From Ruminococcus sp. (GTDB lineage: Bacteria; Bacillota_A; Clostridia; Oscillospirales; Ruminococcaceae), in contig NZ_JAEEMU010000036.1 in NCBI RefSeq assembly GCF_016283395.1, positions 124,001 to 188,000 of the forward strand: DNA of 64,000 nucleotides, read 5' to 3'. The translations under genes and the position numbers were made by a program. Under the pieces are notes generated by a model. That model saw nothing but the letters and a program-made list of their open reading frames with translations. It was not told the origin of the DNA and searched no databases. Numbering within the stretch: position 1 is the stretch's first letter; every line of letters starts with the position of its first letter. Of this stretch, positions 4,352 through 34,721 are shown piece by piece.

Positions 4352-4361
4352 ATCTCAATAC

Positions 4362-5078: not shown

Positions 5079-5264
5079 ATGAGAAAAGTACACAGAAAGA
5101 TAGTAAGCGGAGCACTTTTATGCGGCTGCGCATTATTTACACTTTACGGAGCATCACGCATAGCCGAAAGAGCGGAAAACGGTGCATTGCCCGTATCAAT
5201 TACAGATATGGAAAATGAAACTCCCGTAATAGTGCTTGATGCAGGTCATGGCGCATCAACTTAA
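5079..5264 (+). pseudogene. cwlD: 5' fragment of split CwlD-type N-acetylmuramoyl-L-alanine amidase
   Basis: The first 58 codons of an amidase_3 protein: an N-terminal membrane anchor or signal (residues 8-27), a short stalk, and the first strand with the zinc-ligand motif VIVLDAGHG. The frame then runs into AST and a stop because foreign DNA begins at the CATGGCG core (5247-5253). AAGGAG lies about 10 nt upstream of the ATG. The rest of the gene resumes at 34155-34721. Joining the two gives VLDAGHGGIDGGCT in frame, a 244-residue protein close to the 237 residues of Bacillus CwlD. As it stands the fragment lacks the other zinc ligands and cannot be active. Confidence 0.92.
5247..5253. other. 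attL core of the serine-recombinase element
   Basis: The left copy of CATGGCG. Amidase sequence ends here (codons for His-Gly of the DAGHGG motif) and element sequence follows. A perfect 11 bp inverted repeat, ATCAACTTAAA (5255-5265) and TTTAAGTTGAT (5281-5291), lies immediately inside and may be a recombinase-binding arm. Confidence 0.85.
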
Positions 5265-5300
5265 ACATAGTTAGTAAATCTTTAAGTTGATTGACGTTAA

Positions 5301-5330
5301 AAAGCTCCGATCGAGAGGTCGGAGCTTTTG
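5301..5330 (+). terminator. Intrinsic terminator at the left end of the element
   Basis: AAAGCTCCGA (5301-5310) pairs with TCGGAGCTTT (5319-5328) and is followed by T residues. It would stop transcripts that start at the amidase promoter soon after they enter the inserted DNA. Confidence 0.85.
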
Positions 5331-5374
5331 TGCTTTAATATGTAAAATACGGGACATATTAATGAAAAAATCCC

Positions 5375-5403
5375 TTGACAAATCAAAGATCGTACTGTAT
5401 AAT
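5375..5403 (+). promoter_or_regulatory. Consensus sigma-A promoter for leader peptide and ABC exporter
   Basis: TTGACA (5375-5380), a 17 bp spacer and TATAAT (5398-5403): a perfect match to the vegetative consensus. Transcription should start near 5410, giving a leader of about 210 nt before the exporter start at 5624. Confidence 0.88.
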
Positions 5404-5436
5404 GTTTTTATATTAAATGAAAGGAAGGTGAACTTC

Positions 5437-5526
5437 ATGAGAACAGCATACACTTATATGCCATATTATAGACCAGCAAAAAACAAAATGTCACAAAGCA
5501 AGGAGTTTGCCTGCATAGCCGTATAA
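5437..5526 (+). CDS. 29-aa Tyr-rich leader peptide upstream of ABC exporter
   Basis: ATG at 5437 follows AAGGAAGGTG by a normal spacing. The peptide begins MRTAYTYMPYYRPAKNK and ends CIAV-stop. It is encoded in the leader of the ABC exporter, between a perfect promoter and a terminator-like hairpin. Leaders of this layout control drug-resistance and exporter genes by ribosome stalling or read-through. The Tyr-Pro-rich stretch YTYMPYYRP is a plausible stall site. No family is recognised; the peptide itself is probably the cis-acting product. Confidence 0.6.
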   Translation: MRTAYTYMPYYRPAKNKMSQSKEFACIAV

Positions 5527-5562
5527 CAGCTTTTTTTAGCATTATATAACGGTGTACGTTCT

Positions 5563-5593
5563 GCGCTCCTGCATTGTGTAGGGGTGCTTTTTT
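5563..5593 (+). terminator. Attenuator hairpin in the ABC exporter leader
   Basis: GCGCTCCT (5563-5570) pairs with AGGGGTGC (5580-5587), including two G-U pairs, and is followed by seven T residues. The left arm can instead pair perfectly as CTCCTGCA (5566-5573) with TGCAGGAG (5596-5603) near the exporter start. Two mutually exclusive folds are therefore possible, as expected of an attenuator. Confidence 0.65.
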
Positions 5594-5623
5594 ATTGCAG
5601 GAGGAAAGAAAAGAGAGGTAAAT

Positions 5624-6625
5624 ATGTCAGCTATAATCGAGATCAAAAATGTAAGTAAGGAGTTTAAAGTACTCAATCGGCGCGAGGGACTCAAAGGCAG
5701 TCTCAAGGATCTGTTTTCACGGGATTACAAGATCGTACGCGCAGTGGACAACATCTCAATGGACATTCAGCAGGGCGAGATAGTAGGCTATCTCGGACCT
5801 AACGGTGCAGGAAAATCCACTACTATAAAAATGATGACAGGTGTTCTTGAGCCTACTTCGGGAGAAATACTTGTAAGCGGCAATGTCCCTTATCAGAACC
5901 GCACAAGAAACGCGCAGCATATAGGCGTAGTATTCGGTCAGCGTTCACAGCTGTGGTGGGCACTGCCGCTTGTAGAGTCCTTTAAGATACTAAAAGATAT
6001 CTATCAGATACCTGATGAAAAATACGACGGCATAATGAAGCTTTATCGTTCACTTGTGGACATCGAGCCGCTGCTGCACAAGCCGGTTCGTCAGATGTCT
6101 CTGGGACAGCGTACTCTCAGTGATATCCTAGCTGCTTTTCTGCACGATCCAAAGATAGTGTTCCTTGACGAGCCTACTATCGGACTTGACGTTGCTATGA
6201 AATCAAGGATAAGAACTCTTATCCACGCCCTTAATAAGGAGAAAAATACCACTGTTATCCTGACTACCCATGATATGGGCGACGTTGATGCCCTATGTAA
6301 GAGGATAGTCATTATCGACAAGGGCAAAATGCTCTACGATAACGATATCAACCACCTCAAGGGCTTCTTCGGTTCATACAGAACATTGAAGCTCCGCATC
6401 GACGGCGACCTGAAAGAGCAGGCAAAGCTGTTACAGAAGGAGCTCCCCGAGTTTTCCGTATCAGCCGATGATGAGTGGATATCAGTTCTCGTTGATGAGG
6501 AAAAAGCTAAGGTCATAGACGTACTGAGCAAGCTGCAGCACTCTTATAATATCCGAGATATGCAGCTTGAAGAAATATCCACCGAAGAGGTCATCAAGAA
6601 GATATACGAGGAGGGTGTGCAATGA
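5624..6625 (+). CDS. ABC-2-type exporter ATP-binding subunit
   Basis: A 333-residue ATPase of the COG4586 type, which pairs with two ABC-2 permeases. Walker A GPNGAGKST (about 66), signature MSLGQR in place of LSGGQ (normal for this subgroup), Walker B IVFLDEPTIGLD, and the switch His in LTTHDM are present. The C-terminal 80 residues form an extra regulatory domain. The ATG at 5624 has GAGAGG 5 nt upstream. It overlaps the next gene by 4 nt (ATGA), indicating translational coupling. Substrates of this subgroup are poorly known; the attenuated leader suggests inducible export of an inhibitor, but that is inference. Confidence 0.9.
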   Translation: MSAIIEIKNVSKEFKVLNRREGLKGSLKDLFSRDYKIVRAVDNISMDIQQGEIVGYLGPNGAGKSTTIKMMTGVLEPTSGEILVSGNVPYQNRTRNAQHIGVVFGQRSQLWWALPLVESFKILKDIYQIPDEKYDGIMKLYRSLVDIEPLLHKPVRQMSLGQRTLSDILAAFLHDPKIVFLDEPTIGLDVAMKSRIRTLIHALNKEKNTTVILTTHDMGDVDALCKRIVIIDKGKMLYDNDINHLKGFFGSYRTLKLRIDGDLKEQAKLLQKELPEFSVSADDEWISVLVDEEKAKVIDVLSKLQHSYNIRDMQLEEISTEEVIKKIYEEGVQ

Positions 6626-7425
6626 AACTGAAAAAATACCTTACCCTCACACGCGCAGGCATAATCGAAGCTTTGCAGTTCCGATTGTCATTCGTTGTAA
6701 TGGTCATCGGAAATCTGCTGTATCTTATCGTAGTATACTTTCTTTGGAAAGCCATATATGCTTCCGCAGGAACAGACACAGTAAACGGCATGACATTTAC
6801 TGATACCCTGATATACCTTGTACTGGCAACTGCGCTCTTCAACTTCATGGAGATGTACACAGTCTGGGAGATAGGACGAAATATCCAGTCGGGCAAGATA
6901 GTACTTGACCTGCTGAAGCCGATAGAATACCGAAAATACCTGTTCTGGTCGTACTCTGGCTCATTCGTTACTCAGTTCTTCCTGACATTTCTGCCTACAT
7001 TCATAGCTGTGGCTGTTGTAACTCACGGAGCTATACCTATGGGGATAAATTTACTGTATTTCGTTGCTTCCGTAGTTATGGCAGTATCTATCAACTACAG
7101 CATAGACTTCATCGTAGGCACTATATGTCTCTATACCGAGTCCATATGGGGAATAAACATAATGAAGCAGGTCATCGTGCTCCTGCTGTCTGGTGCAACG
7201 ATACCTATCGCATTTTTTCCCGATACACTTAAAACAGTGGTGAACTTCCTGCCGTTTCAGTCCATATACAATGCGCCGCTTTCGCTTCTGCTGGACGGTG
7301 AACCAAAGACTGAGACTGTTCTAACAACTCTCGGAACTCAGCTTATATGGTGCATAGTGATGATGACAATAAGCAAGGTGTTCTGGAAAACGTCACTGAA
7401 ACAGATAACTGTGAACGGAGGCTGA
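6622..7425 (+). CDS. ABC-2 family exporter permease (first subunit)
   Basis: A 267-residue polytopic membrane protein with six predicted hydrophobic segments, of the kind that follows COG4586 ATPases (COG4587/COG3694). It has the family cytoplasmic motif LDLLKPIEYRKYLFW between segments 2 and 3. The start codon overlaps the stop of the ATPase gene, and the next permease starts 6 nt after its stop. It should form the heterodimeric channel with the following gene. Confidence 0.87.
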   Translation: MKLKKYLTLTRAGIIEALQFRLSFVVMVIGNLLYLIVVYFLWKAIYASAGTDTVNGMTFTDTLIYLVLATALFNFMEMYTVWEIGRNIQSGKIVLDLLKPIEYRKYLFWSYSGSFVTQFFLTFLPTFIAVAVVTHGAIPMGINLLYFVASVVMAVSINYSIDFIVGTICLYTESIWGINIMKQVIVLLLSGATIPIAFFPDTLKTVVNFLPFQSIYNAPLSLLLDGEPKTETVLTTLGTQLIWCIVMMTISKVFWKTSLKQITVNGG

Positions 7426-7431
7426 CAGCAT

Positions 7432-8235
7432 ATGAAAAGAAAAAGTTTGGGCTTCTACGCAAAAATATACTGCAAGATACTTGCACAGGATCTGAAAAGC
7501 AAAATGAGCTACCGTGCAGACTTCATCATCTCAACTATCGGAATGATATGCACCAATATAGCAGGCTTTATCAGCTTCTGGATATTGTTCAGAAACTTTC
7601 CCTCAATAAACGGCTGGGGCTACTACGAAATGCTGTTCCTTTACGGCTTCTCACTGATATCACTGACTCCCGTGCAGTGCTTCTTCGACAACAACTGGAG
7701 TCTGCGCCAGAACGTCTACACAGGCGACTTCATCAAATACTGTTTCCGTCCTATCAATACGTTCTTCTATTATCAGTCAGAGGTGTTTGATATCAAAGGT
7801 CTTGGACAACTTGCATTCGGACTGGTAATGCTCATCTATTCATGGATAAAGATAGGTCTGGGCTTCACGCCTCTGATGCTGCTGAAAATAATAGTGTTCC
7901 TGATAACGGCTTCACTTATTATGATAGCCATGCAGAACGCTGCGGCAGCTACCTGCTTCTGGATACAGAACTCGTTCTACGTTCTCGACCTTGCATTCCG
8001 CTTCAAGGATTACGCTAAATATCCAATTACGATATTCAGTCCCGTATTCAGGTTTATTTTCACATTTCTCATGCCTATCGCATTTATCGCGTACTATCCG
8101 AGCCTTGTGATACTGCGTCCGGATAAAGTGCCGATACTGTCGTGGCTTTCACCTTTTATCGGCATCGCATTCTTCTGGCTCAGCTATAAGATATGGATGC
8201 ACGGTGCTAAAAATTACAGCGGCACAGGTTCGTGA
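7432..8235 (+). CDS. ABC-2 family exporter permease (second subunit)
   Basis: 267 residues with about six membrane segments. The N-terminus KIYCKILAQDLKSKMSYRAD and the internal GDFIKYCFRPINTFFYYQ match the second permease class of this transporter type. It begins 6 nt after the first permease and ends the three-gene exporter operon. The stop lies at the base of a long inverted repeat (8238-8372). Confidence 0.87.
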   Translation: MKRKSLGFYAKIYCKILAQDLKSKMSYRADFIISTIGMICTNIAGFISFWILFRNFPSINGWGYYEMLFLYGFSLISLTPVQCFFDNNWSLRQNVYTGDFIKYCFRPINTFFYYQSEVFDIKGLGQLAFGLVMLIYSWIKIGLGFTPLMLLKIIVFLITASLIMIAMQNAAAATCFWIQNSFYVLDLAFRFKDYAKYPITIFSPVFRFIFTFLMPIAFIAYYPSLVILRPDKVPILSWLSPFIGIAFFWLSYKIWMHGAKNYSGTGS

Positions 8236-8237
8236 TC

Positions 8238-8373
8238 AAAACCACCACTTAACCTTGGTGCTCATATAGAAGTTTATAGTTATTACTCGGGGAAAACCTT
8301 TCTGAGGAAAAGTTCTCCTCAATAATAGTTATAAAAGCCTCTGTATTAGTATCATGGTTAAGAGGTGGTTTTT
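8238..8373 (+). ncRNA. Unidentified structured RNA or long-stem terminator region
   Basis: AAAACCACCACTTAACC (8238-8254) pairs with GGTTAAGAGGTGGTTTT (8356-8372) over 17 positions with one mismatch, closing a domain of about 100 nt. Inside is a clear hairpin, TGAGGA/TCCTCA (8303-8321), and A-rich joining strands. The right arm ends in five T residues, so the outer stem could also act as a terminator for the exporter operon. No known riboswitch core was recognised. It lies between the exporter and the promoter of the c-di-GMP signalling genes. Confidence 0.45.
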
Positions 8374-8425
8374 GATTTGAAAACAGATTATTAGTCTACA
8401 TATTTAGCTTATTTACACAGAATAA

Positions 8426-8454
8426 TTGAATATATATTAAAATTATAGTATAAT
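8426..8454 (+). promoter_or_regulatory. Sigma-A promoter of the c-di-GMP phosphorelay genes
   Basis: TTGAAT (8426-8431), a 17 bp spacer and TATAAT (8449-8454), 33 bp upstream of the start codon at 8487, which has a GGGGGG ribosome site. Confidence 0.75.
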
Positions 8455-8486
8455 AGAACCAAATCATCAATCTGGGGGGAATAAAT

Positions 8487-10181
8487 ATGCAGGAATTGCT
8501 TGAGCGGAAGCAAGGTCTTCATAGGACTGTGCTTATTGTTGATGATGAATTAATTGAAAGGGAAATGCTTGGAGCTATGCTAAGCGGAATATATGAGGTC
8601 ATTTATGCGTCAAACGGCTTGACTGCACTTGAAATTATCAGGAAGGAAAAAATGACTCTTTCTCTTATCATGCTTGATCTGCATATGCCTGAACTTGACG
8701 GATACAGTTTACTGAAGATATTGCGTTCGGACAGTGAACTGTGGCGTATTCCGGTCATTGTACTCACTTCTGAAAAAGATGCCGAAGTAAAAAGTCTGCA
8801 ACTCGGTGCGTCGGATTTTATTTCAAAGCCATATGATGCTCCTGAGATCATACTGGCAAGAGTAAATCATTCTATCGAGCTTTCCGAGGACAGAATTATT
8901 ATTCACGGTACGGAAAGAGATGCGCTTACCGGACTTTTTAATAAAGAATTTTTCTTTGCGTACGGCAGAAGGCTCGACATTCAGAACGGGAATATGCCTA
9001 TGGACGCTATTGTTCTTGATATAAACCGTTTTCATATCATCAATGAGCTTTACGGAAGAGCATATGGTGATATGCTCTTAAAACGGCTCGGCAGCATCAT
9101 ACATGAGCTTGTTTGCCAGACAGGCGGTCTTGCCTGCCGCAGCAACAGCAACAGTTTTGGAATATATATCCCTCATATGGATAATCCGAGGGAGAGTATC
9201 ACTCGGTTTATATCAATGATCGAAGATGCTCTTGGCGACAGCAAGGTAAGCATCAGGATAGGAATATATTCCGATGATGATGTTAATCTTGATATGGAAC
9301 AGCGTTTTGAACGTGCTCAGCTTGTCTGCCAAAAGATAAAAAACAACTATACGACCTGCTTTGATATTTATAATGCCGAATTGCACAGCAAAGAGCTTCA
9401 TTCGGAACGGCTTATAAATGATATGGATACTGCCCTTGCAGAGAAGCAGTTCAAGGTTTTTTATCAGCCCAAATACAATATATGTGACGGTAAGCCTGCA
9501 CTGATAAGTGTTGAAGCTCTCGTGCGCTGGTTTCACCCTGAATATGGCGTGATACCTCCCAGTGAGTTCATAACTCTGTTTGAGGATAACGGCCTTATCA
9601 GACAGCTTGACAAATATGTCTGGAATGAAGCTGCTGCTCAGATAAAACAATGGAACGATGAAGGATTTGATCTTCCCGTATCTGTGAACGTTTCAAGAGT
9701 AGATGTTTTTAATCCGCGATTGCTAGACATATTAAGCGATATAATAAAAACAAGCGGTATAGGCAGTGAAAGTCTGCTTCTTGAAATAACGGAATCAGCA
9801 TATTCTGATAATGCACAGCAGATAATCAATACCGTTATGCGCCTTCGTGAAAACGGCTTCAAGATAGAAATGGACGATTTCGGCAGCGGATATTCCTCGC
9901 TCAATATGCTCTGTTCATTACCGATAGACGCGCTTAAACTGGATATGGAATTCATAAGGAATATATGCGAAAACAAAAAACATCTGCGTTTGGTCGGAAT
10001 AATGATCGAGATCGCAAGACTTCTTGAAGTACCTGTTATAGCTGAGGGCGTGGAAACCAAGGAACAGCTTGATCTGCTGGAGGAACTTGGCTGCGATATA
10101 ATACAAGGATATTATTTTTCCAAGCCTCTGTCTGCGGAAGAGCTTACCGCTCTTATGAAAGCTGAAGTTAGGAGTGTGTAG
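8487..10181 (+). CDS. Response regulator with degenerate GGDEF and active-type EAL (c-di-GMP phosphodiesterase)
   Basis: 564 residues, cytoplasmic. The N-terminal receiver (about 15-130) keeps the phospho-acceptor Asp in MLDLHMPELDGY and the Lys in ISKPYD. A diguanylate-cyclase fold (about 150-290) has lost its signature: SNSNSFG stands where GGDEF should be, so it should not make c-di-GMP. The EAL domain (about 300-555) keeps EALVRW, NVSRVD, LEITES, DDFGSGYSSL, KLDMEF and EGVETKEQ, the metal-binding and catalytic set. The predicted output is phosphorylation-controlled c-di-GMP hydrolysis. The HPt gene starts 3 nt after its stop, and a permease-kinase-receiver fusion follows, which together suggest a phosphorelay. 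Confidence 0.9.
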   Translation: MQELLERKQGLHRTVLIVDDELIEREMLGAMLSGIYEVIYASNGLTALEIIRKEKMTLSLIMLDLHMPELDGYSLLKILRSDSELWRIPVIVLTSEKDAEVKSLQLGASDFISKPYDAPEIILARVNHSIELSEDRIIIHGTERDALTGLFNKEFFFAYGRRLDIQNGNMPMDAIVLDINRFHIINELYGRAYGDMLLKRLGSIIHELVCQTGGLACRSNSNSFGIYIPHMDNPRESITRFISMIEDALGDSKVSIRIGIYSDDDVNLDMEQRFERAQLVCQKIKNNYTTCFDIYNAELHSKELHSERLINDMDTALAEKQFKVFYQPKYNICDGKPALISVEALVRWFHPEYGVIPPSEFITLFEDNGLIRQLDKYVWNEAAAQIKQWNDEGFDLPVSVNVSRVDVFNPRLLDILSDIIKTSGIGSESLLLEITESAYSDNAQQIINTVMRLRENGFKIEMDDFGSGYSSLNMLCSLPIDALKLDMEFIRNICENKKHLRLVGIMIEIARLLEVPVIAEGVETKEQLDLLEELGCDIIQGYYFSKPLSAEELTALMKAEVRSV

Positions 10182-10184
10182 ATC

Positions 10185-10520
10185 GTGCTGACGCTAAATA
10201 AACTCATTGACTTTGGTGCAGATGTGAAAGACGGACTTATGCGCTGCATGAACAAAGAAGATTTTTATCTTATGCTGGTCAACAAGTCTCTCAGTGATAA
10301 CAGATTATCCCTGCTTGAGCATCAGATAAACACCAAGGATTATTATTCAGCATTTGAAACTGCTCATACGTTGAAAGGTATGTATTCAAATCTTTCTTTA
10401 ACTCCTTTGACAGTTCCAATCAGCAAAATGACCGAACTCCTTCGTAACGGGACAGATACGGATTATACTGTTCTGTTGGAAGAAGCAAAAGCTCAGTTTC
10501 ATAAGTTGTGTAATTTGTAA
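10185..10520 (+). CDS. Histidine phosphotransfer (HPt) protein
   Basis: 111 residues, GTG start at 10185, 3 nt after the phosphodiesterase stop, so translation is coupled. It is an all-helical HPt with the phospho-accepting His in ETAHTLKGMYSNL. It has no other domain. The expected role is to carry the phosphoryl group between the receiver of the kinase fusion downstream and the receiver of the EAL protein upstream. Single-domain HPt proteins are uncommon in Firmicutes, and this neighbourhood explains the need for one. Confidence 0.85.
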   Translation: MLTLNKLIDFGADVKDGLMRCMNKEDFYLMLVNKSLSDNRLSLLEHQINTKDYYSAFETAHTLKGMYSNLSLTPLTVPISKMTELLRNGTDTDYTVLLEEAKAQFHKLCNL

Positions 10521-10524
10521 TGTA

Positions 10525-10563
10525 AAAACGGGAACAGTTCTTTGAGTTGCTCCCGTTTTATTG
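10525..10563 (+). terminator. Intrinsic terminator after the HPt gene
   Basis: AAAACGGGA (10525-10533) pairs with TCCCGTTTT (10551-10559). It separates the PDE-HPt pair from the permease-kinase gene, which probably has its own or read-through expression. Confidence 0.75.
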
Positions 10564-10606
10564 TTTTATTGTGATATGAGAATGTATTGAAAGGTGGTAA
10601 AGAAAA

Positions 10607-13399: not shown

Positions 13400-13422
13400 T
13401 AACTTATGTATTTATATATAGG

Positions 13423-13470
13423 ATAGAGTCGGTATTTAGCCTTTTTACTAAATATCGGCTCTGTTTTATT
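13423..13470 (+). terminator. Intrinsic terminator after the permease-kinase gene
   Basis: AGAGTCGGTATTTA pairs with TAAATATCGGCTCT (two G-U pairs) around an 11 nt loop and is followed by GTTTTATT. Confidence 0.8.
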
Positions 13471-13567
13471 ATCAACAAAAAACGACTTGTATTTCTTATT
13501 GAAAAAAGTTATTATAAAAATATATATGTTCGTTTTTTATTTATTATTTTAGAAGGATGTGATCATT

Positions 13568-15466: not shown

Positions 15467-15521
15467 TGAAAGTAAGTGTTATGCTGTTCCGTAACAAATC
15501 AGACGCAGCAACAGGCGGCGT

Positions 15522-15606: not shown

Positions 15607-15639
15607 ACGCATTAAACGCCGGAAACAAAGAGATTTGTC

Positions 15640-15671
15640 ATTTCACCACAAAAAGAGCATATTTCACCACA
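15640..15671 (+). promoter_or_regulatory. 21-bp-spaced direct repeats, likely LytTR regulator site
   Basis: ATTTCACCACA occurs identically at 15640-15650 and 15661-15671. The 21 bp period, two turns of the helix, is the spacing bound by LytTR-type regulators such as AgrA and ComE. The second repeat lies 28 bp upstream of a TATAAT (15700-15705) that lacks a good -35 box, as expected for an activated promoter. The operon it precedes encodes a LytTR response regulator (21261-21971), so autoregulation is the natural inference. Confidence 0.65.
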
Positions 15672-15731
15672 TTATTTACCATGCTCATTTTTTCTGTGTT
15701 ATAATCAGAAAAAATGAAAGGACCGGTATCT

Positions 15732-16190
15732 ATGAAAAAATTTCTCATTGCATTTATTATTTTGGCTGTTGTGGGCGGCGTGACTTGGTTCTTCCTGCTT
15801 CGTCCCGAAACTATCTCACAGGAAACTCTGACGCAGGACTTTGAAGAGCACCGTCAGGCTTACGAGGACATTGCGTACTACCTCACAAAAAAGGACATAA
15901 CAACTGAGATCAAGGATATCCCCATGGCAGGAAAACAGTATGACGGTGTCGTGTATGAGGATACTGATGAGTACCGTGCATTTATGGAAGCCATTTATGT
16001 AATCATGGAGGAAGATCACGATGCGATAATCTCTGACGGGAAAAATGTGGAGTTCGTGTATCATAGTACGGGCGGCAGGTTCAGAAAGCTGTACGGCTCG
16101 GTGATCTATAACGGTGAGAATCAGGTCAAAGGAAAGGTCACTGTACCGCTGACGACCAACGGCTGGCATTTGTATATCGCACAGGGGTGA
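15732..16190 (+). CDS. Membrane-anchored hypothetical protein, first gene of peptidase/ABC/TCS operon
   Basis: 152 residues from ATG 15732 (GAAAGGA 9 nt upstream; the ATG at 15714 overlaps the site). There is one N-terminal membrane segment (FLIAFIILAVVGGVTWFFLL) and an outside or inside domain of about 125 residues with alternating helices and strands; family not recognised. The stop is 4 nt before the M13 peptidase start, so it is tightly coupled to it. It might be a partner or inhibitor of the peptidase, but nothing in the sequence proves this. Confidence 0.65.
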   Translation: MKKFLIAFIILAVVGGVTWFFLLRPETISQETLTQDFEEHRQAYEDIAYYLTKKDITTEIKDIPMAGKQYDGVVYEDTDEYRAFMEAIYVIMEEDHDAIISDGKNVEFVYHSTGGRFRKLYGSVIYNGENQVKGKVTVPLTTNGWHLYIAQG

Positions 16191-16194
16191 TACT

Positions 16195-18120: not shown

Positions 18121-18121
18121 T

Positions 18122-20533: not shown

Positions 20534-20543
20534 GGGGAGCAGA

Positions 20544-21218: not shown

Positions 21219-21260
21219 AAACAGGCGGCGGATGTGTTATACTGAAATAGGGTGATAATT

Positions 21261-21971: not shown

Positions 21972-21980
21972 GTGGTGCTG

Positions 21981-26629: not shown

Positions 26630-26670
26630 TCGGCATATTGCTGTAAAGCGATAATACCGAAAAAAGTATA

Positions 26671-26717
26671 AAAAGACGGCTAATGAAGGCTTTAAAGCTT
26701 ACATTAGCCGTTTTTTG
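26671..26717. terminator. Bidirectional terminator between CotH and GH9 genes
   Basis: ACGGCTAATG (26676-26685) pairs with CATTAGCCGT (26702-26711), flanked by AAAAAG and TTTTTT. It serves the two convergent genes. Confidence 0.88.
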
Positions 26718-26725
26718 AATATAAA

Positions 26726-29700
26726 TCAGTCTATACTAAGTCCAAGTAATAATTTCTGTATGTTCAGCGCATCACCAACAGTCAGACCGTCACCGTTCAT
26801 ATCGCCGTTTATTTCGCCCTGCTTTGTAAGATGATTTTCAGCTGTGCCGTTTATTCCGTATTTATTCGGATTTGCAAGAGCCTGCATAATGAGAACTGCA
26901 TCGCTCATATCGACCTGACCATCACAGTTGGCATCAAACTTAACGATCATTGGGATAGGCGTGTCAACTGTTACGACAGAAGTTGTGGATACAGTTGTTG
27001 TGGTAGTTGTCGTTGTGGTAGTGACAGTGCTTGTATTCGTAGTAGTTGTGGTAGTTGTTTCCTCGGGAGCTTTTCCTAAAATATCCTCAAAGAAAGACAG
27101 ATTCCAAACCAAGCCTGCCTGCCAGTCAAGAGCAGGACTGTTTACCGACCATGCCTCAATGGAATCGGCATAGCATTTCTGCGGAGATGTCTTTTGGGGA
27201 TTAAGACCGAGAGCGTGTACATACATATCAGGCACCCATGTATAAGGTCCGCCTGCCATTATTCCGTCAGGAGCTTTGGGGAAGTTCTTGTCGATCTCAT
27301 ATCCCCAGTATTCGTCCACAGGATTTTGAGTATAATATGAACCGCTTCCTGTAACATATGATATACCAAGACCGTTTCTTCCGAAAATATAATCCAAAGC
27401 CTGCAAAGCTCCGTTCAGGTACTTTTTGTCGGCTGTTGCATCGTAAGCATAAGCCATTATCAGAGCATTATTTGTAATTGTACTGTTAGAGCCAAGACCG
27501 TAGCCATATGAATCAGACGGATGGACTAATGGATCATACCAATGCATCTTCTCATACGGAACACCCATGCCATTGGTTTTCGTATCGCTTTCAAGATCAA
27601 GATATTTATTTGCAGTAGTTGTAAGGTTTTTCTTTATTGTTTCCTTGTCAGCATCTGTTGTCTTATCGCTGAGATAAAGAGACAGGGTTCCGCAGCCAAT
27701 CTTATTGTTTCGGTCAAATGAAGAGAATACTCCGTAGGATTCGAGCATAGGAAGATAAGTCGGGAAACCAAAAGCATAACACTGCATAGCATCATTTGTA
27801 ATTTCCTTGCTCTTGAACTCCTTCAGATAATCATAGTATGTTTCGTCACCTGTAGTTGCAAACAGCTCACAGGCTGCCCAGTAAGCATCATCTTCAACAT
27901 CGGAATTATATGAATCAGTATCATGATATGAAGAAAACGGAACAAAATGAACATCTGTCTCCCATGCAGAGTCACTAAATATACCTTCTTTGTATTCAAA
28001 ATCAGCTTTATATTTTATGACAGCTTCCCATGATCTCTTTGCATGGTCAAGACATTCCTGTGCAAAGTCATCATCAATGCCATTCCACAGACGGGCTGCC
28101 TGTGCTGCGCAGGCTATCATATTGAATGTAGCACTGTATGTAGGCGGACAGATTAGACGCGGCGACATTTTTTCGCCGATGTAATCAAGGGGAGCATACG
28201 GTACAGGCTCACTCCAGAGGTTCCTTACCCTGTCGTAAACAAAATCCTCATATTCTTCGCCCCATATGCTGTCCTTTTCAGAGTCAACTATCATTCTGAA
28301 CATGAATTCAAGTTCATATCTGGCCTCGTCAAGAATATCAGGAGTATCAGTACAGTTTACAGTTCCGTTTGATATACTGTATTCGCTTGGAATAGTCATA
28401 GTCTTGCCGTCAGCCCATTTGCCGTCGGTCCCGTTTTTCTTTGACCTTTCGTACATATTCTGGAGAAGCCATACAGCATTACCGCCGCTTGAAATACTCT
28501 TGCAATGGTTTTCGGGATCGTACCAACCGCCCGAAACGTCCAGAGAGACTTTTTTATTTATATCAATATCAAAATCACGACCAAAATATTCATCATACCA
28601 TATCGGCTGAACATAGGCTAAGTCAGTGTTTATAAAATCTTTATGGGCGATCTTATTTTTGTCACCAGATGTCACATACTTCGCTTCAACATCAGAACCC
28701 GAGCGTTTCTGATAGTAATAATTAAGCGCGTTTCTGAGTACGTTTTTATAGATATCATCACCTATGCTGAACTCATGACTGATGTGTTTATTGCCGTCCT
28801 TTTCATCGTCCATAACTATGGTATATACACCGGGAGTATCGAACTTCGAGAAATCAACTATATGGCAGTATTCTCCTGCCATCTCATCATATCCTGCTGG
28901 CTCGCTCTTGCCTGTATATACAGTATTTCCGTCCTTGTCGACCAGCTTGAAATCAACAGCTTCTTTATCCTTTTCGGTAACATATGTAGCTTTTTTATCA
29001 GCTGTTGTGTAATATCCGAGCTGATTAAGGCGTACATCGTTTTTGGGTATAGTTAAGCCCAAATTACTGTCTCCTGTCCAGCCGCAGGTAGCAGAAATGG
29101 GATCTTCATCACAGGTAAGGCATTCGATAGACATATCATCGAACCATATTTCATCACCAGCCTTAGCATTACCCTGATACTTAGTACCTTTTGCATACTG
29201 AAATGTCCACTGACATCCTTCAATATCTTCGGTAGGTTTGAATATTCCCTCAATGGTCTGCCATTCGGTTGTGAGTTCCAACGCCTTTGCCGGCCACCGA
29301 CCATCCATATGAGGTCCCATATGCATATCCGATGATTGACCGTCAAGCACGAAGTATTCTTCAAGGTCGTTTAAAGTACCGATGAACGAGCAAAGCTCCA
29401 TTTTATCTCTTTTGCTTTTGACTTTAAAGCTGACTTTGTACTCATGACCTTTTTTGAAATTGAGACCTCTGTGTCTGAACTGAAGATCCCACTTTTCATG
29501 TTCTGAACCTTCGGGGACACGGATCTGGATATGGAACGTCCCGTCCTCGATATTAAAGGCTTGCTTTGCGGGATTTGATGAACAGATGTGCCATGGAAGC
29601 GACTTGTTTTCAAACGAAGTTTCTCCAAGTACCTGCACCGCCGAAGCAGACATGGGAGCAATATAAGCAGATGTTGATGCTGCTAACATTGCCAGTGACA

Positions 29701-29737
29701 AGATGCCCGAGATAAATTTTTGTGTTTTATTATGCAT
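26726..29737 (-). CDS. GH9-fold protein with CBM4-like and Ig modules plus dockerin; catalytic residues replaced
   Basis: 1003 residues from ATG 29737 (GGGAGG upstream). Order: signal peptide, CBM4/9-like module (about 35-205), N-terminal Ig domain (about 230-330; VRLNQLGYY), GH9 barrel (about 335-870), Thr-rich linker, dockerin (DANCDGQVDMSDAVLIMQ). GH9 signatures are recognisable but altered: GGWYDAGDH reads GGWYDPENH, losing the second Asp (base); NPHHR reads NPVDEY; and the acid signature NExA reads NSPA in YADSIEAWSVNSPALDW, replacing the Glu by Ser. It is therefore probably not a normal endoglucanase; it may bind polysaccharide or have another activity. It lies convergent to the CotH gene and downstream of the GH11-like gene on the same strand. 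Confidence 0.87.
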   Translation of the reverse strand: MHNKTQKFISGILSLAMLAASTSAYIAPMSASAVQVLGETSFENKSLPWHICSSNPAKQAFNIEDGTFHIQIRVPEGSEHEKWDLQFRHRGLNFKKGHEYKVSFKVKSKRDKMELCSFIGTLNDLEEYFVLDGQSSDMHMGPHMDGRWPAKALELTTEWQTIEGIFKPTEDIEGCQWTFQYAKGTKYQGNAKAGDEIWFDDMSIECLTCDEDPISATCGWTGDSNLGLTIPKNDVRLNQLGYYTTADKKATYVTEKDKEAVDFKLVDKDGNTVYTGKSEPAGYDEMAGEYCHIVDFSKFDTPGVYTIVMDDEKDGNKHISHEFSIGDDIYKNVLRNALNYYYQKRSGSDVEAKYVTSGDKNKIAHKDFINTDLAYVQPIWYDEYFGRDFDIDINKKVSLDVSGGWYDPENHCKSISSGGNAVWLLQNMYERSKKNGTDGKWADGKTMTIPSEYSISNGTVNCTDTPDILDEARYELEFMFRMIVDSEKDSIWGEEYEDFVYDRVRNLWSEPVPYAPLDYIGEKMSPRLICPPTYSATFNMIACAAQAARLWNGIDDDFAQECLDHAKRSWEAVIKYKADFEYKEGIFSDSAWETDVHFVPFSSYHDTDSYNSDVEDDAYWAACELFATTGDETYYDYLKEFKSKEITNDAMQCYAFGFPTYLPMLESYGVFSSFDRNNKIGCGTLSLYLSDKTTDADKETIKKNLTTTANKYLDLESDTKTNGMGVPYEKMHWYDPLVHPSDSYGYGLGSNSTITNNALIMAYAYDATADKKYLNGALQALDYIFGRNGLGISYVTGSGSYYTQNPVDEYWGYEIDKNFPKAPDGIMAGGPYTWVPDMYVHALGLNPQKTSPQKCYADSIEAWSVNSPALDWQAGLVWNLSFFEDILGKAPEETTTTTTTNTSTVTTTTTTTTTTVSTTSVVTVDTPIPMIVKFDANCDGQVDMSDAVLIMQALANPNKYGINGTAENHLTKQGEINGDMNGDGLTVGDALNIQKLLLGLSID

Positions 29738-29837
29738 TTTAAACCCTCCCTTATAAATATGCATTGTATAACTATTATATATGTTTATGAAAAAATAGTC
29801 AAGTTTTTGTAAAAATCGGTATATGAAAATTTTGCAA

Positions 29838-29890
29838 TGCAGCCATTAGCTGTTAGCCGTAAGCTATTAGCCGAAGAAGTTCGCATACAT
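29838..29890. repeat. Partial copy of the palindromic heptamer repeat
   Basis: AGCCATT-AGCTGTT-AGCCGTA-AGCTATT-AGCCGAA followed by a stretch like the core of the backbone repeats (GAAGTTCGC). It is a half copy without the second arm, inside the recombinase element, which implies the repeat family and the element have shared a host. Confidence 0.65.
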
Positions 29891-29912
29891 TTTTTAAATA
29901 GATATGCAGCGG

Positions 29913-29950
29913 CAAAAGAAAACGCTCGCGAATACGCGAGCGTTATTTTT
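29913..29950 (-). terminator. Terminator of the GH11-like gene
   Basis: AACGCTCGCG (29921-29930) pairs with CGCGAGCGTT (29935-29944) around a 4 nt loop. Read on the minus strand it ends in TTTTCTTTT. T-rich flanks on both sides make it usable in both directions. Confidence 0.85.
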
Positions 29951-32114
29951 ATTCTGTTTTGGTCTTGTCAAAGAATGATAATTCCTCGATATCAATATGT
30001 CCCGATGTATTGTCAGCACTTAATTCAAATTTTATTTCGCTTGGTTTGGCATTTTCCATACCATAATACTTCAGTATCTCTGAAAAGTCAATTTCTCTTT
30101 CAAAGCTGCATGGTACGCCGCATTCAATGATATTTTCTGTGGGATAGAGCCAGTACACAGGTTCAAATATGTCATTTCCCTCAGTTTCCTTATCAACGTA
30201 ATACTCTGTTCCGCCAATAGTCACGCGCTCCATATCGTCAGCTCCCGATAACCACCTGAGCCTATCTTTTTCATCTGCACCGTCTACAACAAACACATTG
30301 AAAGTTTTGCCGTCTTTTATGAATCCTGCAGTCAGTGTAACAGTAATATCATGGTAACTGCTGTCGTTTTTAAATACCTGATCATCAGTTACTGCTTTTC
30401 CCGAATATTTTACGCTCAGCTCGTCATAGCCGTGAAGCACCCTTGAAGATGATGCCTCATAATTTCTGACATTTTCCCATTCTGCCATAAATGTACCGTT
30501 TTCACGGAGAGCCGTTTTTACAGATTTGGAATTGCCTCCGTAAGCACTTACTATATGAGTTGTACCGTTAACTTCTTTATTAAAACTTCCAAGGTATAAT
30601 TCCGTACCGATCTCAGGTTCGGGGATAGACTTTGCCTGACCGAGAACGAAACGTGTAAGAAGTACCAGATCACTTATATTGAGCTTGCAGTCTCCGTTGA
30701 CATCGTGAACAGCGTCAATGGAAAAATCACTTGCATCAATGAGTTCTTTTCTCAATGCGATAATATCGAACATATCAACTGAATTATCATGGTTGATATC
30801 TCCGCGTACACGATCATCTGATGGATTTATCATCTCATTATATTTATCCGCTTCGCAGATATAGAGATTATCTGCGTAGAAATCCACAGCTTCGTTAGCT
30901 GTTACGGTGAGATAGGCTTTTGTGAAGCAATCAGCGGATACTGAAAAATGGAACGGCTCTACAGATACCCAGCGTCCTGCGGGAACGGTCCTGCTGTATT
31001 TGTCAGCGAAAAAAATGCCTCTGGTATTGTTCTCGAACATGACCTCAAAATCAAAGGTTACAGCCTTGTCCGAATTCTGGAACAGCTTTATTCCACTTAC
31101 AAGATCACTGCTTCTGAAGTCATACGGATCTATCTCGTACATAAATGTACGTTTGTTATCGCCCTCAGCTGATATGAGCACTGAACGCTCGCCGCTGACA
31201 GAACGTTCATCACTGTATGAAGCCTGACATTCTTCGCTGAGTGTACCGAACTTGTCATTATCGGTTTCAAAGTCGGTATATACTGTTCTTCCTTCTTCGT
31301 CAGGTTCACCAGGTTCATGCTTTTTATATGCAAAAACAGGTCCGTAATTCAACTCAGGAGTGATCTCCTTTGTGATGTCGAGCGAGTTCAGTTTGACGCT
31401 GCCGCTGCTTCGGTAGCCTTCGGAGTCGAATCCAATATTATATATATATCCAAGCTCAAAGCCTGCTTCGGACCATGCTTTAAAATGGTCAGCAACATTG
31501 ACAGTATTTTTGATATTGCAGGTACCGTCTATCTTTTCGGCTTGATTTTCCCTTGCAACGCTATAGTAAATATACTTAGGCGAGTTATTATCGCTAAAGC
31601 AGGCTATCTGAGCTATGACGCTCCTGTAAATGTCATATGTAATGCCATTTGATTCAAATGAGCCATAATCTTTGTCATCATTTCCCCGGGGACGCCAGCT
31701 TCCCCAGCTGTCTATGATATAGAAATATTTATCAGGCTCATCCATACAGCCATAAATGCCGCAGTAATTGTTCTGCCCCATATAGTCGATATCTGCATCA
31801 TATGTCACATTGTATTCCTTAAGCTGGGATGCAAATATCTCTTTTCTTTCAAAGGCTTCACCTTTCATTACAAAAGAGTTCTCGATATTGCTCCAGCTGA
31901 CAGAATAGCCGTTATTTTCAGTGTTTTCGTAATTGAGTTCTCCGGTGCCGTTCTGCCGCCATACCTCATAATGATAGCCGTCTATATCTCCGTCCTCGAA
32001 ATAATCAGCTGCGTATACATTTGATGAAGATATGACCGACGGCAGATTTACTGTACCCAACAGACAAAATCCAGCTGTCAGGACAGCCGCTGTTCTGGCA
32101 AACGATTTATGCAT
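29949..32114 (-). CDS. GH11-like / CBM-like / dockerin secreted protein lacking the GH11 nucleophile
   Basis: 721 residues with a signal peptide and GAGGAGG site. The first domain (about 40-250) aligns with GH11: DGYHYEVW, YSVSWSNIENSF, GIYGCMDEPDKYFYIID, SWGSWRP, SEGYRSSGS. The acid/base Glu is kept in SEGYRSSGS, but the nucleophile Glu of PLVEYYIVE is Tyr (PDKYFYIID), so xylanase activity is doubtful. A beta-sandwich (about 280-425) and a mid-protein dockerin (DINHDNSVDMFDIIALRKEL, DVNGDCKLNISDLVLLTRFV) follow. The C-terminal ~220 residues are another jelly-roll-like domain (NGTFMAEWENVRNY) of uncertain family, perhaps a second GH11/12-type fold. The domain order parallels the active GH11 protein at 13568 as far as the dockerin; both end in an extra domain. 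Confidence 0.82.
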   Translation of the reverse strand: MHKSFARTAAVLTAGFCLLGTVNLPSVISSSNVYAADYFEDGDIDGYHYEVWRQNGTGELNYENTENNGYSVSWSNIENSFVMKGEAFERKEIFASQLKEYNVTYDADIDYMGQNNYCGIYGCMDEPDKYFYIIDSWGSWRPRGNDDKDYGSFESNGITYDIYRSVIAQIACFSDNNSPKYIYYSVARENQAEKIDGTCNIKNTVNVADHFKAWSEAGFELGYIYNIGFDSEGYRSSGSVKLNSLDITKEITPELNYGPVFAYKKHEPGEPDEEGRTVYTDFETDNDKFGTLSEECQASYSDERSVSGERSVLISAEGDNKRTFMYEIDPYDFRSSDLVSGIKLFQNSDKAVTFDFEVMFENNTRGIFFADKYSRTVPAGRWVSVEPFHFSVSADCFTKAYLTVTANEAVDFYADNLYICEADKYNEMINPSDDRVRGDINHDNSVDMFDIIALRKELIDASDFSIDAVHDVNGDCKLNISDLVLLTRFVLGQAKSIPEPEIGTELYLGSFNKEVNGTTHIVSAYGGNSKSVKTALRENGTFMAEWENVRNYEASSSRVLHGYDELSVKYSGKAVTDDQVFKNDSSYHDITVTLTAGFIKDGKTFNVFVVDGADEKDRLRWLSGADDMERVTIGGTEYYVDKETEGNDIFEPVYWLYPTENIIECGVPCSFEREIDFSEILKYYGMENAKPSEIKFELSADNTSGHIDIEELSFFDKTKTE

Positions 32115-32352
32115 AATAATTCCTCCTCACTGAAAAACAAATCAAATTCAGAAATAACATATCCTCTTTTCATGCTATCATTTTTATTCTGAAATGTCAA
32201 ATCATTTTTTGCTAAAAAAGGCGGTACGTAGCCAACTGCTGTTCCATTGATATTAATTGTTCTGCAATTATGTTTACGATAAACGCAGACACAGATCAAG
32301 CGGTAATATAGCGTTGTCTGACCGCATATAATTCAAGGAAAGGGGGAGTACC

Positions 32353-32472
32353 ATGAAGGAGAGAATATATATTAAAAACAGCTATAAATCACCAAATGTT
32401 GAACACTTGCGGAAAGCTGTCACTGAAAAGATCGAAAAGCTTATAAATCGTCAGCTCAGTAAAGCTTGCTGA
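32353..32472 (+). CDS. 39-aa basic small protein upstream of the serine recombinase
   Basis: ATG 32353 follows GGGGGAG; the frame encodes 39 residues beginning MKERIYIKNSYKSP and rich in Lys/Arg and Leu (LRKAVTEKIEKLINR), predicted mainly helical. It ends 16 nt before the recombinase frame, so both probably share a transcript. Small basic proteins beside serine integrases are sometimes recombination directionality factors or regulators, but there is no recognisable family here and the role is open. A TATAAT at 32327-32332 may be its promoter. Confidence 0.6.
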   Translation: MKERIYIKNSYKSPNVEHLRKAVTEKIEKLINRQLSKAC

Positions 32473-32488
32473 TAATAAGTGCAGCACA

Positions 32489-34078
32489 TTGAAGGAGGTG
32501 AGGTCAACGCCTAAAGTGGCTATATATTGCCGATTGTCCATAGAAGACAAGGACAAAGCGAAGAACGGCTCAAGCGCAAGCATACAAAATCAAAAGGCAA
32601 TGCTCCGTGACTACTGTCACGAGCGTGATTGGGAGATCTTTGACATCTACGTTGACGACGGCTGCAGCGGCATTGACCGCACCCGTCCCGAGTTCAACCG
32701 TATGCTCAGGGACTGCGAGAACGGAAAAATCGACATTGTTCTGTGCAAAGACCAGTCCCGCTTCTCACGCGATACAGTGGTTATCGAGCAGTTTATCAAC
32801 GACAGGTTTTTAGAGTGGGGGATACGCTTCATCGGAGTCGCCGACAATGCAGATACAGACAGCGAAAGCTATTCCACAATGCGGCTGTTCACCAGTGCCT
32901 ACAACGAGATGTACGTAAAGGATATTTCCTCGAAAATTCGGCGTACTCTCGCATATAAACGTGAGCAGGGACAGTTCATAGGCTCTTTTGCTCCATATGG
33001 CTATACTATTGACCCAAAAGAAAAACATCATCTTGTTATAGACGAAGAAACTGCACCTGTTGTGCGGCTTATATTCGATATGTACGTCAGCGGTGAGGGC
33101 TACCGCAGAATAGTTCAGCGGCTGAACGCCGACGGCATCGTAAGTCCGTCAGAGTACAAGCGTCAGAAGGGTTCAAAGTATGTTAATCTCAATGCCGATA
33201 CGAGTAATGCCAAGGGACTTTGGACGCAGTCTACTGTTGCAAGGATCTTGCGTAATGAAATGTACACGGGTACGCTTGTGCAAGGAAAGTCCCACCACAT
33301 CAGCTACAAAAACAAGAAGCGAAAGAAAGTGGAGCAGTCTGAATGGGTCCGTATTCCCGATGCACACGAGGCTATAATAGACACTGAAACATGGTCACGT
33401 ACACAGGAACGTATTAACGGCAATGTTAGAGCAGAAAAGTGTTCGCAGGAGCTCTCTCCGCTGTCAGGAAAGGTCAGATGTGCTTGCTGCGGACGACCTA
33501 TGAAGCGTAATATTTATTATAACAAGGCTAAGACTATAAAGTACTACGGACTGCAATGCGCAACTTACAAGACAGGTGCAATGAACTGTCCCAACAGATC
33601 AAGTATCAGCGGTCTTGTCCTTGAAAGGCATATTCTCGTTGAACTTAACGCTGTCGTTGAGCAGTTCTGCCAAGCTGATGAGATACAGCTCACGGATATC
33701 CACTCCGAGCAGCTAAGGGAGCTTGAACGCAGGCTCTGTACACTTGAAGCAAGGCAGAAAACAGCTAATGATCGCCTTTTGAAAATGTACAAGGACAAGC
33801 TTGACGGAATGCTGTCAGACGGGGACTACTCTGTGTTCAGACAGAGCCTAAGCGATGAGGAGAATGATCTCACGGAGCAGATAGCAGAGCTCGGGCAACA
33901 GATAGCGGACTGCCGAAAACGTCAGGAAAATGCCGAGGTGCAGAAGGCTCTGATTGGGCAGTTTACCCACTTCGATAAGCTTGACCGTATTATTGCTGAC
34001 GAGTTCATCGAATATATCGAGATAGGGGAGACCTGCGAGAGCGGCGCGCGAGAAATACATATACACTGGAAGCTGTAG
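32489..34078 (+). CDS. Large serine recombinase (TnpX/TndX class)
   Basis: About 529 residues. The resolvase catalytic domain (about 8-150) has the nucleophile Ser in VAIYCRLS, then SIQNQ, DDGCSG and DQSRFSRD. The recombinase domain (about 165-275; YGYTIDP, GEGYRRIVQRLN), a zinc ribbon (CACCGRPM and later Cys), a coiled coil (about 400-475) and a C-terminal tail complete a large serine integrase like those of Tn4451 and Tn5397. The start is uncertain: AAGGAGG (32492-32498) lies just after the TTG at 32489 and no ATG is near; GTG 32516 is an alternative. It should catalyse strand exchange at the CATGGCG core. The gene ends 77 bp from the right junction, pointing outward. Confidence 0.93.
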   Translation: MKEVRSTPKVAIYCRLSIEDKDKAKNGSSASIQNQKAMLRDYCHERDWEIFDIYVDDGCSGIDRTRPEFNRMLRDCENGKIDIVLCKDQSRFSRDTVVIEQFINDRFLEWGIRFIGVADNADTDSESYSTMRLFTSAYNEMYVKDISSKIRRTLAYKREQGQFIGSFAPYGYTIDPKEKHHLVIDEETAPVVRLIFDMYVSGEGYRRIVQRLNADGIVSPSEYKRQKGSKYVNLNADTSNAKGLWTQSTVARILRNEMYTGTLVQGKSHHISYKNKKRKKVEQSEWVRIPDAHEAIIDTETWSRTQERINGNVRAEKCSQELSPLSGKVRCACCGRPMKRNIYYNKAKTIKYYGLQCATYKTGAMNCPNRSSISGLVLERHILVELNAVVEQFCQADEIQLTDIHSEQLRELERRLCTLEARQKTANDRLLKMYKDKLDGMLSDGDYSVFRQSLSDEENDLTEQIAELGQQIADCRKRQENAEVQKALIGQFTHFDKLDRIIADEFIEYIEIGETCESGAREIHIHWKL

Positions 34079-34154
34079 AGGTATGCTGTTATTTTGGAAA
34101 ATCGAAGCTGCTTAGCGGATAGATCTTATGACTGTAGTTAAGACATATCCACCA

Positions 34155-34161
34155 CATGGCG
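34155..34161. other. attR core of the serine-recombinase element
   Basis: The right copy of CATGGCG. Element sequence (ATCCACCA) lies before it and the amidase frame (GGIDGGCT) after it. Joining 5246 to 34155 regenerates the codons of DAGHGGIDGG, so this is the exact crossover segment within 7 bp. Confidence 0.85.
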
Positions 34162-34721
34162 GAATAGACGGCGGCTGTACCTCTGCCGAAGGAGTTCCTG
34201 AGAAAGGGATAAACCTCGATATATTGTTGAAGCTTAGGGATTTGCTTGAAGTAAACGGATTTGAGGTCAGGGTAACAAGAGACACTGACAGATCGATACA
34301 CAACGAAGGAGTGGAGGGTATAGCAGCGCAGAAAAGCTCGGATATGGATAACAGACTTGCCATATTCAACGAGAGCGATAATGCTGTGTGTATATCAATA
34401 CATCAGAATCAGTTCACAGATCCGAAATACAGCGGAGCACAGATGTTTTACTCGGGCAGCAACAGTACCAGCGAAGCCCTTGCAAGGGCTTTGCAAGGGA
34501 AGTTCAGGGAGTTTTTGCAGCCTGATAATGACAGGGAGATAAAGCTGTGCGGAAAGGAGCTTTTTCTCTGTTATTACAGCAATAATCCTACAGTTATGGC
34601 GGAATGCGGCTTTTTGTCCAATCCCGATGAGGCTTCGCTTCTGAATACGGAGGAGTACCGTTCAAAGGTGGCATTTACGCTTTTTTCGGGGATAAATGAT
34701 TATCTGGATCAGAAGAAATAA
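34155..34721 (+). pseudogene. cwlD: 3' fragment of split CwlD-type N-acetylmuramoyl-L-alanine amidase
   Basis: Encodes the remaining 186 residues of the amidase after His-Gly: GGIDGGCT, the Glu of EKG, SIHQNQ with the second zinc His, KYSGAQMFYSG, and the C-terminal ECGFLSNPDEASLL with the catalytic Glu. KYSGAQMFY and GFLSNPDEASLL are nearly the same as in Bacillus CwlD, which makes muramic-lactam in spore cortex. An ATG at 34128 inside the element could give a 197-residue product, but it would lack the first strand and the membrane anchor and has no good ribosome site. It would become functional if the element is excised. Confidence 0.92.

Follow-up and report, generated by a model that had tools for sequence, protein, structure and literature searches.

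A large serine recombinase (LSR) and its cargo divide the gene for a CwlD-like amidase in the stretch of Ruminococcus sp. DNA analysed here (contig NZ_JAEEMU010000036.1; the whole stretch of 64,000 nucleotides is called the window below). Elements with related recombinases occupy the same gene in other species of the genus. Judged from their genes and motifs, these elements probably (we would say roughly 60%) form a family of sporulation gene-intervening elements of the skin and gin type, which LSRs insert into a spore-cortex amidase gene and which are excised in sporulation. The amidase would be a new target for a known kind of element and is described as such in no open-access paper that we found.

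In the proposed mechanism, a site-specific LSR would insert DNA at the codons of the first zinc-ligand motif of the amidase (DAGH|GG), and the vegetative genome would carry the gene in two pieces. During sporulation, the mother-cell factor sigma-E would transcribe an operon consisting of a small open reading frame (ORF) and the LSR gene. The small protein would serve as a recombination directionality factor (RDF), and recombination between attL and attR would excise the element. The rejoined amidase gene would be expressed from its own sigma-E-type promoter in the mother cell, which dies anyway, and the spore would retain the element. We infer excision, its timing, its dependence on sigma-E and the role of the small protein from sequence; on these grounds, programmed excision is likely for the family.

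A split amidase gene and its relatives

The 5' half of the amidase gene (amN) is on the forward strand at 5079-5264. It has 57 codons (5079-5249) up to the residues DAGH, after which the split frame reads GAST and stops at 5264. Orthologous DNA of Ruminococcus flavefaciens YAD2003 is 96.4% identical over window positions 5032-5253. The 3' half (amC, 34158-34721, forward strand) holds the catalytic domain, and the ORF that contains it (34128-34721) matches Amidase_3 (E = 3.9e-35) and scores 185 bits with the CwlD profile. A core, CATGGCG, is present at both junctions (5247-5253 and 34155-34161), and the span inserted between the halves is 28,908 bp. The initial annotation had placed the break at this shared core, and had proposed that joining 5246 to 34155 gives an uninterrupted amidase of 244 codons and that a large serine recombinase sits at the right end. 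All of this holds at those coordinates. The in silico join is a 244-aa frame with 0 stops, and the LSR gene (32489-34078, forward strand, 529 aa) has Pfam Recombinase, Resolvase and Zn-ribbon domains. No tRNA target for insertion is found within the 64-kb window.

Intact homologues of the joined amidase, for which the initial annotation had proposed a search, are present in R. flavefaciens YAD2003 (97% identical), ATCC 19208 (93%) and Y1 (91%). Among the best 80 of 244 confirmed genome loci, the closest matches are R. flavefaciens strains, which together with the intact YAD2003 gene places the host in the R. flavefaciens group. The attachment site attB is the run of amidase codons for DAGHGG, the first zinc-ligand motif. 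In the CwlD protein of Clostridium difficile, zinc is coordinated by His49, and a transmembrane segment is predicted at residues 1-25, with which the protein is proposed to cross membranes derived from the mother cell (PMC8496864). The motif His of the Ruminococcus amidase would be the equivalent of His49. Insertion at the DAGH|GG codons thus leaves membrane anchor and catalytic domain on different pieces of the gene.

The amidases of two intact relatives score 199 and 200.9 bits with the CwlD profile (NCBIfam TIGR02883) and 81-83 bits with the next amidase profiles; the curated CwlD cut-off is missed, and the protein is therefore called CwlD-like. The nearest solved structure is that of a germination-specific amidase, 7rag (134 bits; the next, 64.6). 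Relatives in the genus encode spore genes. SpoIVA scores above its cut-off in 13/13 genomes searched, and in 18/18 the top match to the sigma-E profile reaches 334-356 bits, with 8 above the cut-off of 348.6 and the next sigma factors at about 190-205. R. bromii has a full sporulation gene set and forms endospores (PMC5814915), and cwlD is within the sigma-E regulon of C. difficile and Bacillus subtilis (PMC3789822, PMC517825). Genome G030 has its second-best sigma gene divided into two pieces, one on each of two contigs, and a 584-codon serine recombinase frame lies directly before the 3' piece. This gene is presumably sigK, and the locus (L223, 3959-4331; L224, 4984-7086) is a probable skin element in Ruminococcus.

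The survey of the genus comprises 125 genomes, one per species. LSR relatives were defined by E <= 1e-130 (50-86% identical to the LSR of the window), with at most 11 candidates scored per genome; they are found in 31/125 genomes, one per genome among the candidates scored. An amidase was scorable if it matched an intact amidase at E <= 1e-50, and split if this match begins at residue 35 or later. One such match is present in 107/125 genomes, and 36 of the 107 are split. By a hand cross-count, 28 genomes have an LSR relative and a split amidase, 2 an LSR relative and an intact amidase, 8 a split amidase alone and 69 an intact amidase alone (Fisher p = 2.4e-16). A check for the same attachment site in relatives, also suggested by the initial annotation, finds the amidase split in 28/30 genomes with the LSR and a scorable amidase, versus 8/77 without the LSR. 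The two intact genomes with an LSR, G008 and G009, both contain arrays, which are described below. The 69 include two partial matches (G046 and G104), and the 18 genomes left out of the cross-count have no scorable amidase, one of them (G094) being LSR-positive. Inspection covered part of the 36 split genomes, with G081 (match from residue 35) and G043 outside that part.

Both halves of the gene were recovered at 12 loci: the window, G010, G011, G012, G014, G018, G030, G031, G062, G099, G103 and G105. At ten of these, one contig holds both halves; those of G010 and G018 come from separate contigs and were paired by hand. All 12 rejoin in silico to open frames of 241-253 aa, so the in-frame join of the window is not due to chance. 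At G014, the join as cut replaces the motif His with Gln, so the crossover lies slightly earlier.

Ten elements, each complete on a single contig, are 3,836 to 28,908 bp long. Their common content is limited to the LSR (50-84% identical to that of the window), which is the sole shared ORF of at least 90 aa, and an ORF of about 39 aa upstream of it. In 9/10, the LSR lies in the middle or right part of the element and is read in the direction of the amidase 3' half; in G031 it adjoins the left arm. Among the other cargo tested are polysaccharide-type genes and genes for dockerin proteins, an RsgI-like protein and a protein with a TIR domain. The element cargo at L163 16093-19605 (G105) includes a TIR-domain protein with a weak match to Thoeris ThsB, a possible defence gene. 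Dockerin cargo was considered as a general feature of the elements and rejected; only 4/10 complete elements have any, as scored with a home-made profile.

Attachment sites and promoter motifs

In the window, attL (5247-5272, forward strand) consists of the core followed by a P' arm, CATCAACTTAAACATAGTT, and attR (34130-34161, forward strand) of an atypical P arm, GACTGTAGTTAAGACATATCCACCA, followed by the core. At most of the other split loci, as well as in the array cassettes, amN is followed by the same or a similar P' arm. The related loci include 5' halves that run on into CATGGCGnATCAACTTAAACnTAGTT and right halves preceded by a common arm instead of a 5' half. Tandem copies in G008, G009 and G102 expose the whole attP, for example GACTCGGTTTAAGTTGATTCGCCACATGGCGGATCAACTTAAACATAGTT, which is an inverted repeat about the core; in-chromosome attP junctions are present at L087, L083 and L166. 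Several right arms (for example, L054, L077 and L166) read in frame as LVLVDSPHGG, a mimic of the amidase strand IVLDAGHGG. This mimicry probably reflects shared recombinase half-sites, and some right arms may give the 3' half an open in-frame start. A 190-kb contig of G009 (C13, 1-189937; L085, L086 and L101) carries amN|P' junctions close to each of its ends and one more P' arm in its interior, a pattern of either att-like sites scattered along the contig or a single array of great length.

Both the recombinase operon and the amidase are preceded by a promoter motif of the sigma-E type. The motif was scored over 9 letters as ATA-N(15-17)-CATAnAnT; we take ATA-N16-CATAnAnT to be the sigma-E promoter form. 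In the window, it lies on the forward strand at 32304-32332 for the recombinase operon (TAATATA-N14-CATATAAT; 9/9 letters) and at 5010-5038 for the amidase (TCATACA-N14-AATATAAT; 8/9 letters). Upstream regions of LSR operons score at least 8 in 27/31 cases (200 shuffles: mean 5.53, maximum 13), with the motif 28-35 nt before the end of the sequence scanned in 22 of the 27, and score 9 in 14/31 (shuffle mean 0.29, maximum 2). Amidase upstream regions, which are related sequences and not mutually independent, score at least 8 in 63/87 cases and 9 in 19/87 (shuffle means 6.48 and 0.36). The corresponding figures for intergenic regions upstream of other ORFs at the same loci are 43/583 and 1/583. 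Unrelated LSRs of the genus score at least 8 in 0/20 cases at each of two offsets (expectation 0.10 and 0.66), and upstream regions of presumed sigK genes do so in 7/7 (shuffle mean 1.96, maximum 5). These matches suggest that the LSR operon and the amidase depend on sigma-E. The promoters of sigma-E and sigma-K have similar -10 and differing -35 elements (PMC3789822).

The 39-aa ORF of the window (32353-32472, forward strand) is a candidate RDF. A relative of it is found upstream of the LSR in 31/31 elements, 28 by script and 3 (G014, G050 and G099) by eye, 2 of the latter without a stop in the printed stretch. Pfam gives no significant match for the 3 small-ORF proteins searched.

Composite cargo and cassette arrays

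Comparison with YAD2003 reveals that the DNA inserted in the window is composite. Module A (5624-15466, forward strand) encodes an ABC-2 exporter trio, a GGDEF/EAL regulator, Hpt, a permease-hybrid kinase and a GH11-CBM-dockerin-rhodanese protein, and is absent from the YAD2003 stretch compared, save for one 98-bp match. Module M1 (15634-23299, forward strand) encodes a hypothetical protein, an M13 peptidase, an FtsX/ABC exporter and a LytTR and GHKL two-component pair. Module M2 (23495-32218) carries a CotH-dockerin gene on the forward strand (23699-26629) and GH9 (26726-29764) and GH11-dockerin (29949-32114) genes on the reverse strand. In YAD2003, M1 is immediately upstream of the intact amidase (92% identity) and M2 is upstream of M1 (91-92%). 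The order there (L098 and L001) is the left flank (window 1-4393), 23495-32218, 15634-23299 and then intact amN and amC. The best LSR matches in YAD2003 are 32-35% identical and on other contigs; it has no close LSR. M1 and M2 (16.4 kb) thus lie outside any such LSR element in YAD2003 and are resident modules in permuted order. The '28.9 kb element' of the initial annotation stands as a span, and the comparison rules it out as a single unit. The permuted modules may have passed through a circular or tandem intermediate, and no decayed amN/P' seams are found by eye between M1, M2 and the LSR.

Module A encodes two fusion proteins: a GH11-CBM-dockerin protein with a C-terminal rhodanese domain (13559-15466), which is an odd fusion, and an amino-acid permease fused with a hybrid histidine kinase (10607-13399). 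More dockerin-like or CotH-like ORFs, as read by eye, occur left of the amidase (65-4351) in DNA shared with YAD2003. A phage or plasmid origin of the element was considered and rejected, as phage (855 matching records) and plasmid (385) collections yield only LSRs of less than 60% identity. Of the 17 ORFs of the window element submitted to Pfam, none is identified as a phage, relaxase or conjugation gene; PHROGs was not searched.

In three genomes, cassettes restore the amidase by supplying it with a new promoter and 5' half. One to three copies of amN, each with a P' arm behind it, lie upstream of an intact amidase within one contig in G006, G008 and G009 (L082, L088 and L084). Each of the six cassette intervals examined has one large gene and a fresh amN at its end; the third of G006 also has two smaller ORFs. 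The large genes encode LRR-dockerin, CotH-dockerin, LRR or RTX proteins, and 4/6 match Dockerin_1 (E <= 7e-7 to 1.8e-4); the Pfam cut-off is passed by one of these and narrowly missed by three. This bias is modest because six R. flavefaciens-group genomes have at least 130-149 dockerin stretches each. The amN copies within an array differ in sequence and are thus not recent duplicates. Distinct upstream regions of orphan amN copies in arrays score at least 8 for the promoter motif in 6/7 cases. The right flanks of G008 and G009 are about 96-97% alike, and one cassette is common to the two genomes at either end (87% and 92%), with a diverged middle. A further cassette of G009 is nearer the 3' half, which is consistent with insertion at the intact core. 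The cassette reaction would formally join attB and an amN|P' circle, unlike the usual attB x attP reaction; homologous recombination in amN is an alternative route.

We tentatively propose, with the odds somewhat against it, that the cwlD-like gene is a site of programmed rearrangement in Ruminococcus. In about one quarter to one third of species, LSR elements timed by sigma-E would divide this gene. Non-autonomous cassettes of the R. flavefaciens group (a P' arm, one large and often dockerin-bearing gene, a sigma-E promoter and a fresh amN) would enter at the core that the LSR elements use and rebuild the gene with every insertion, forming an integron-like platform that stacks cellulosome genes.

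Alternative explanations and known systems

The elements could instead be ordinary LSR genomic islands with a strict attB in the amidase, which inactivate a dispensable gene and turn over by transfer with no programmed excision. We regard this as unlikely. Islands would fit the ten complete elements, which differ in cargo and share only the LSR among larger ORFs, the proportion of scorable amidases that are split (36/107, about a third) and the disagreement between amC and LSR histories. G030 and G062 are 97.8% identical in amC and 80.1% in the LSR, and G087 and G121 94.7% and 70.3%; such near-alike amC genes paired with diverged LSRs indicate that the elements insert repeatedly. Purely vertical inheritance of the split state is not supported, given the weak correlation between LSR and amC identities (r = 0.29; 351 pairs, 27 genomes) and the case of G010 and G012, with an LSR dS of 0.60 versus an amC dS of 1.29. 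Against islands speak the same rare promoter motif on the recombinase operon and its target, the absence of decayed halves (0 in 12/12 loci) and amC dN/dS values as low as those of intact genes. The values are 0.011-0.090 in six pairs with usable dS, and 0.050, 0.011 and 0.032 in the three split-split pairs, versus a median of 0.043 for intact pairs (n=7). There is no sign of relaxed selection on amC, which fits a gene in use or young insertions alike. The suggestion of the initial annotation that the host no longer needs the amidase is thus disfavoured for the family by open right halves and low dN/dS, with the proviso that young insertions would look the same. Vegetative on/off switching (phase variation) of a cell-wall amidase is very improbable. 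Serine recombinases can drive reversible switches and the gene halves remain open, but the sigma-E-type motifs and the affinity to CwlD point to sporulation.

The window copy may have a history of its own. Its right arm has a median alignment score of 6.0 among 29 right arms, and 26 of the 28 others score 9-15.5; the remaining outliers are G099 (6.0) and G014 (3.0), making 3 of 29. Right arms of the typical kind are present in the split R. flavefaciens strains ND2009, XPD3002 and YRD2003. The best match of this arm is in G014, a type B element carrying an LSR with 50% identity to that of the window, and the left arm and LSR of the window are of the common type. It is conceivable, at a little under even odds, that this copy is a hybrid relic, in which an older type B right arm is combined with a type A left arm and recombinase, resident modules have been rearranged in and the whole is now fixed. 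The divergent arm and the location of M1 and M2 outside any such LSR element in YAD2003 favour a relic, whereas the open LSR frame with all its Pfam domains, the two open amidase halves, the identical core and the equally divergent arm of G099 do not. A relic in the window is compatible with sporulation gene-intervening elements in the family. Because this element is composite and its right arm atypical, its excision is uncertain. Precise restoration of the gene, as first proposed, succeeds in silico, where the frame rejoins, and does not extend to straightforward excision of this copy. Reversible, developmentally timed gene splitting finds indirect support in the family (the recurrent site, in-frame rejoining and the shared mother-cell-type motif).

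Several observations weigh against programmed excision in sporulation. The atypical right arm means that the window copy may no longer excise. Eight of the 36 split genomes have no detected LSR, which may reflect incomplete assemblies. The amidase is below the NCBIfam CwlD cut-off (199-201 versus 221.55), and the spore-gene counts cover genus relatives, the window's own genome not being among them. The promoter motif was defined after the LSR upstream regions had been viewed, so the later tests on amidase and other upstream regions count more, and the 20 unrelated LSRs are a weak control because their expectation is itself low (0.10-0.66). The motif of presumed sigK genes has a spacing of 17 instead of 16 in 6/7 cases. 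A positive control with spoIVA failed: 0/13 upstream regions score at least 8 within 150 nt, and over 600 nt only 3/13 have a match, at scattered positions. This failure may be due to a distant promoter or to a weak motif definition. Finally, the correlation of 0.29 implies that elements are passed between lineages, so that open halves may indicate no more than recent insertion.

If sporulation gene-intervening elements are the correct reading, developmental DNA rearrangement would reach a further gene, that of a spore-cortex amidase, and a further group, the fibre-degrading cocci of the rumen, in which sporulation has received little study; one spore gene would have been captured repeatedly by unrelated cargo. 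Intact, split, tandem and cassette-restored loci would provide a natural series for testing what draws mobile DNA to mother-cell genes. The recombinases would also be a family of highly site-specific enzymes with deduced attP sites.

Intervening elements have been published in sigK, spoVFB, spoVR and spsM (PMC4191935), gerE (PMC5595907) and yabG (PMC10747680). The gin element in gerE of Bacillus cereus ATCC10987 (PMC5595907) is, like those of Ruminococcus, a phage-gene-free element (28.6 kb) with an LSR (GirC) and a short shared core (9 bp). It splits a mother-cell spore gene and has an additional directionality factor (GirX), to which the CwlD-like gene and the small ORF of Ruminococcus would correspond. 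Expression of the gin LSR is sporulation-specific; the Ruminococcus counterpart is a promoter motif. Unlike the Ruminococcus elements, gin resides in Bacilli, targets gerE instead of an amidase and has three recombinase genes, and its excision is proven, whereas theirs is deduced from DNA. In C. difficile, skinCd is an LSR element in a mother-cell spore gene, sigK, and its RDF, CD1234, is under sigma-E (PMC5025042). There the LSR is constitutive and only the 72-aa RDF is sigma-E controlled, whereas the Ruminococcus elements have one apparent operon with the ORF of about 39 aa followed by the LSR. SP-beta in spsM, vfbin in spoVFB and vrin in spoVR (PMC4191935) and yin in yabG (PMC10747680) are also intervening elements in sporulation genes, but in the excerpts consulted they are described as prophages or prophage-like, and none is in cwlD.

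In the open-access literature, we found no paper on rearrangement of cwlD by a recombinase or on serine recombinases with dockerins in R. flavefaciens, and no mention of Ruminococcus in the papers listed on sporulation intervening elements. SCC and ECC cassette chromosomes occupy a single chromosomal site and form arrays. They resemble the Ruminococcus family as LSR (CcrB) elements at one chromosomal site, and CcrB is the best NCBIfam profile of the Ruminococcus LSR. The scores (CcrB 134, CcrC 108 and CcrA 74 bits) are far below the cut-offs (900, 900 and 700) and place this LSR outside the Ccr families. Composites are described for SCC (PMC5595907). The Ruminococcus elements differ from cassette chromosomes in their target, and their arrays regenerate the 5' half and the promoter of the gene into which they insert.

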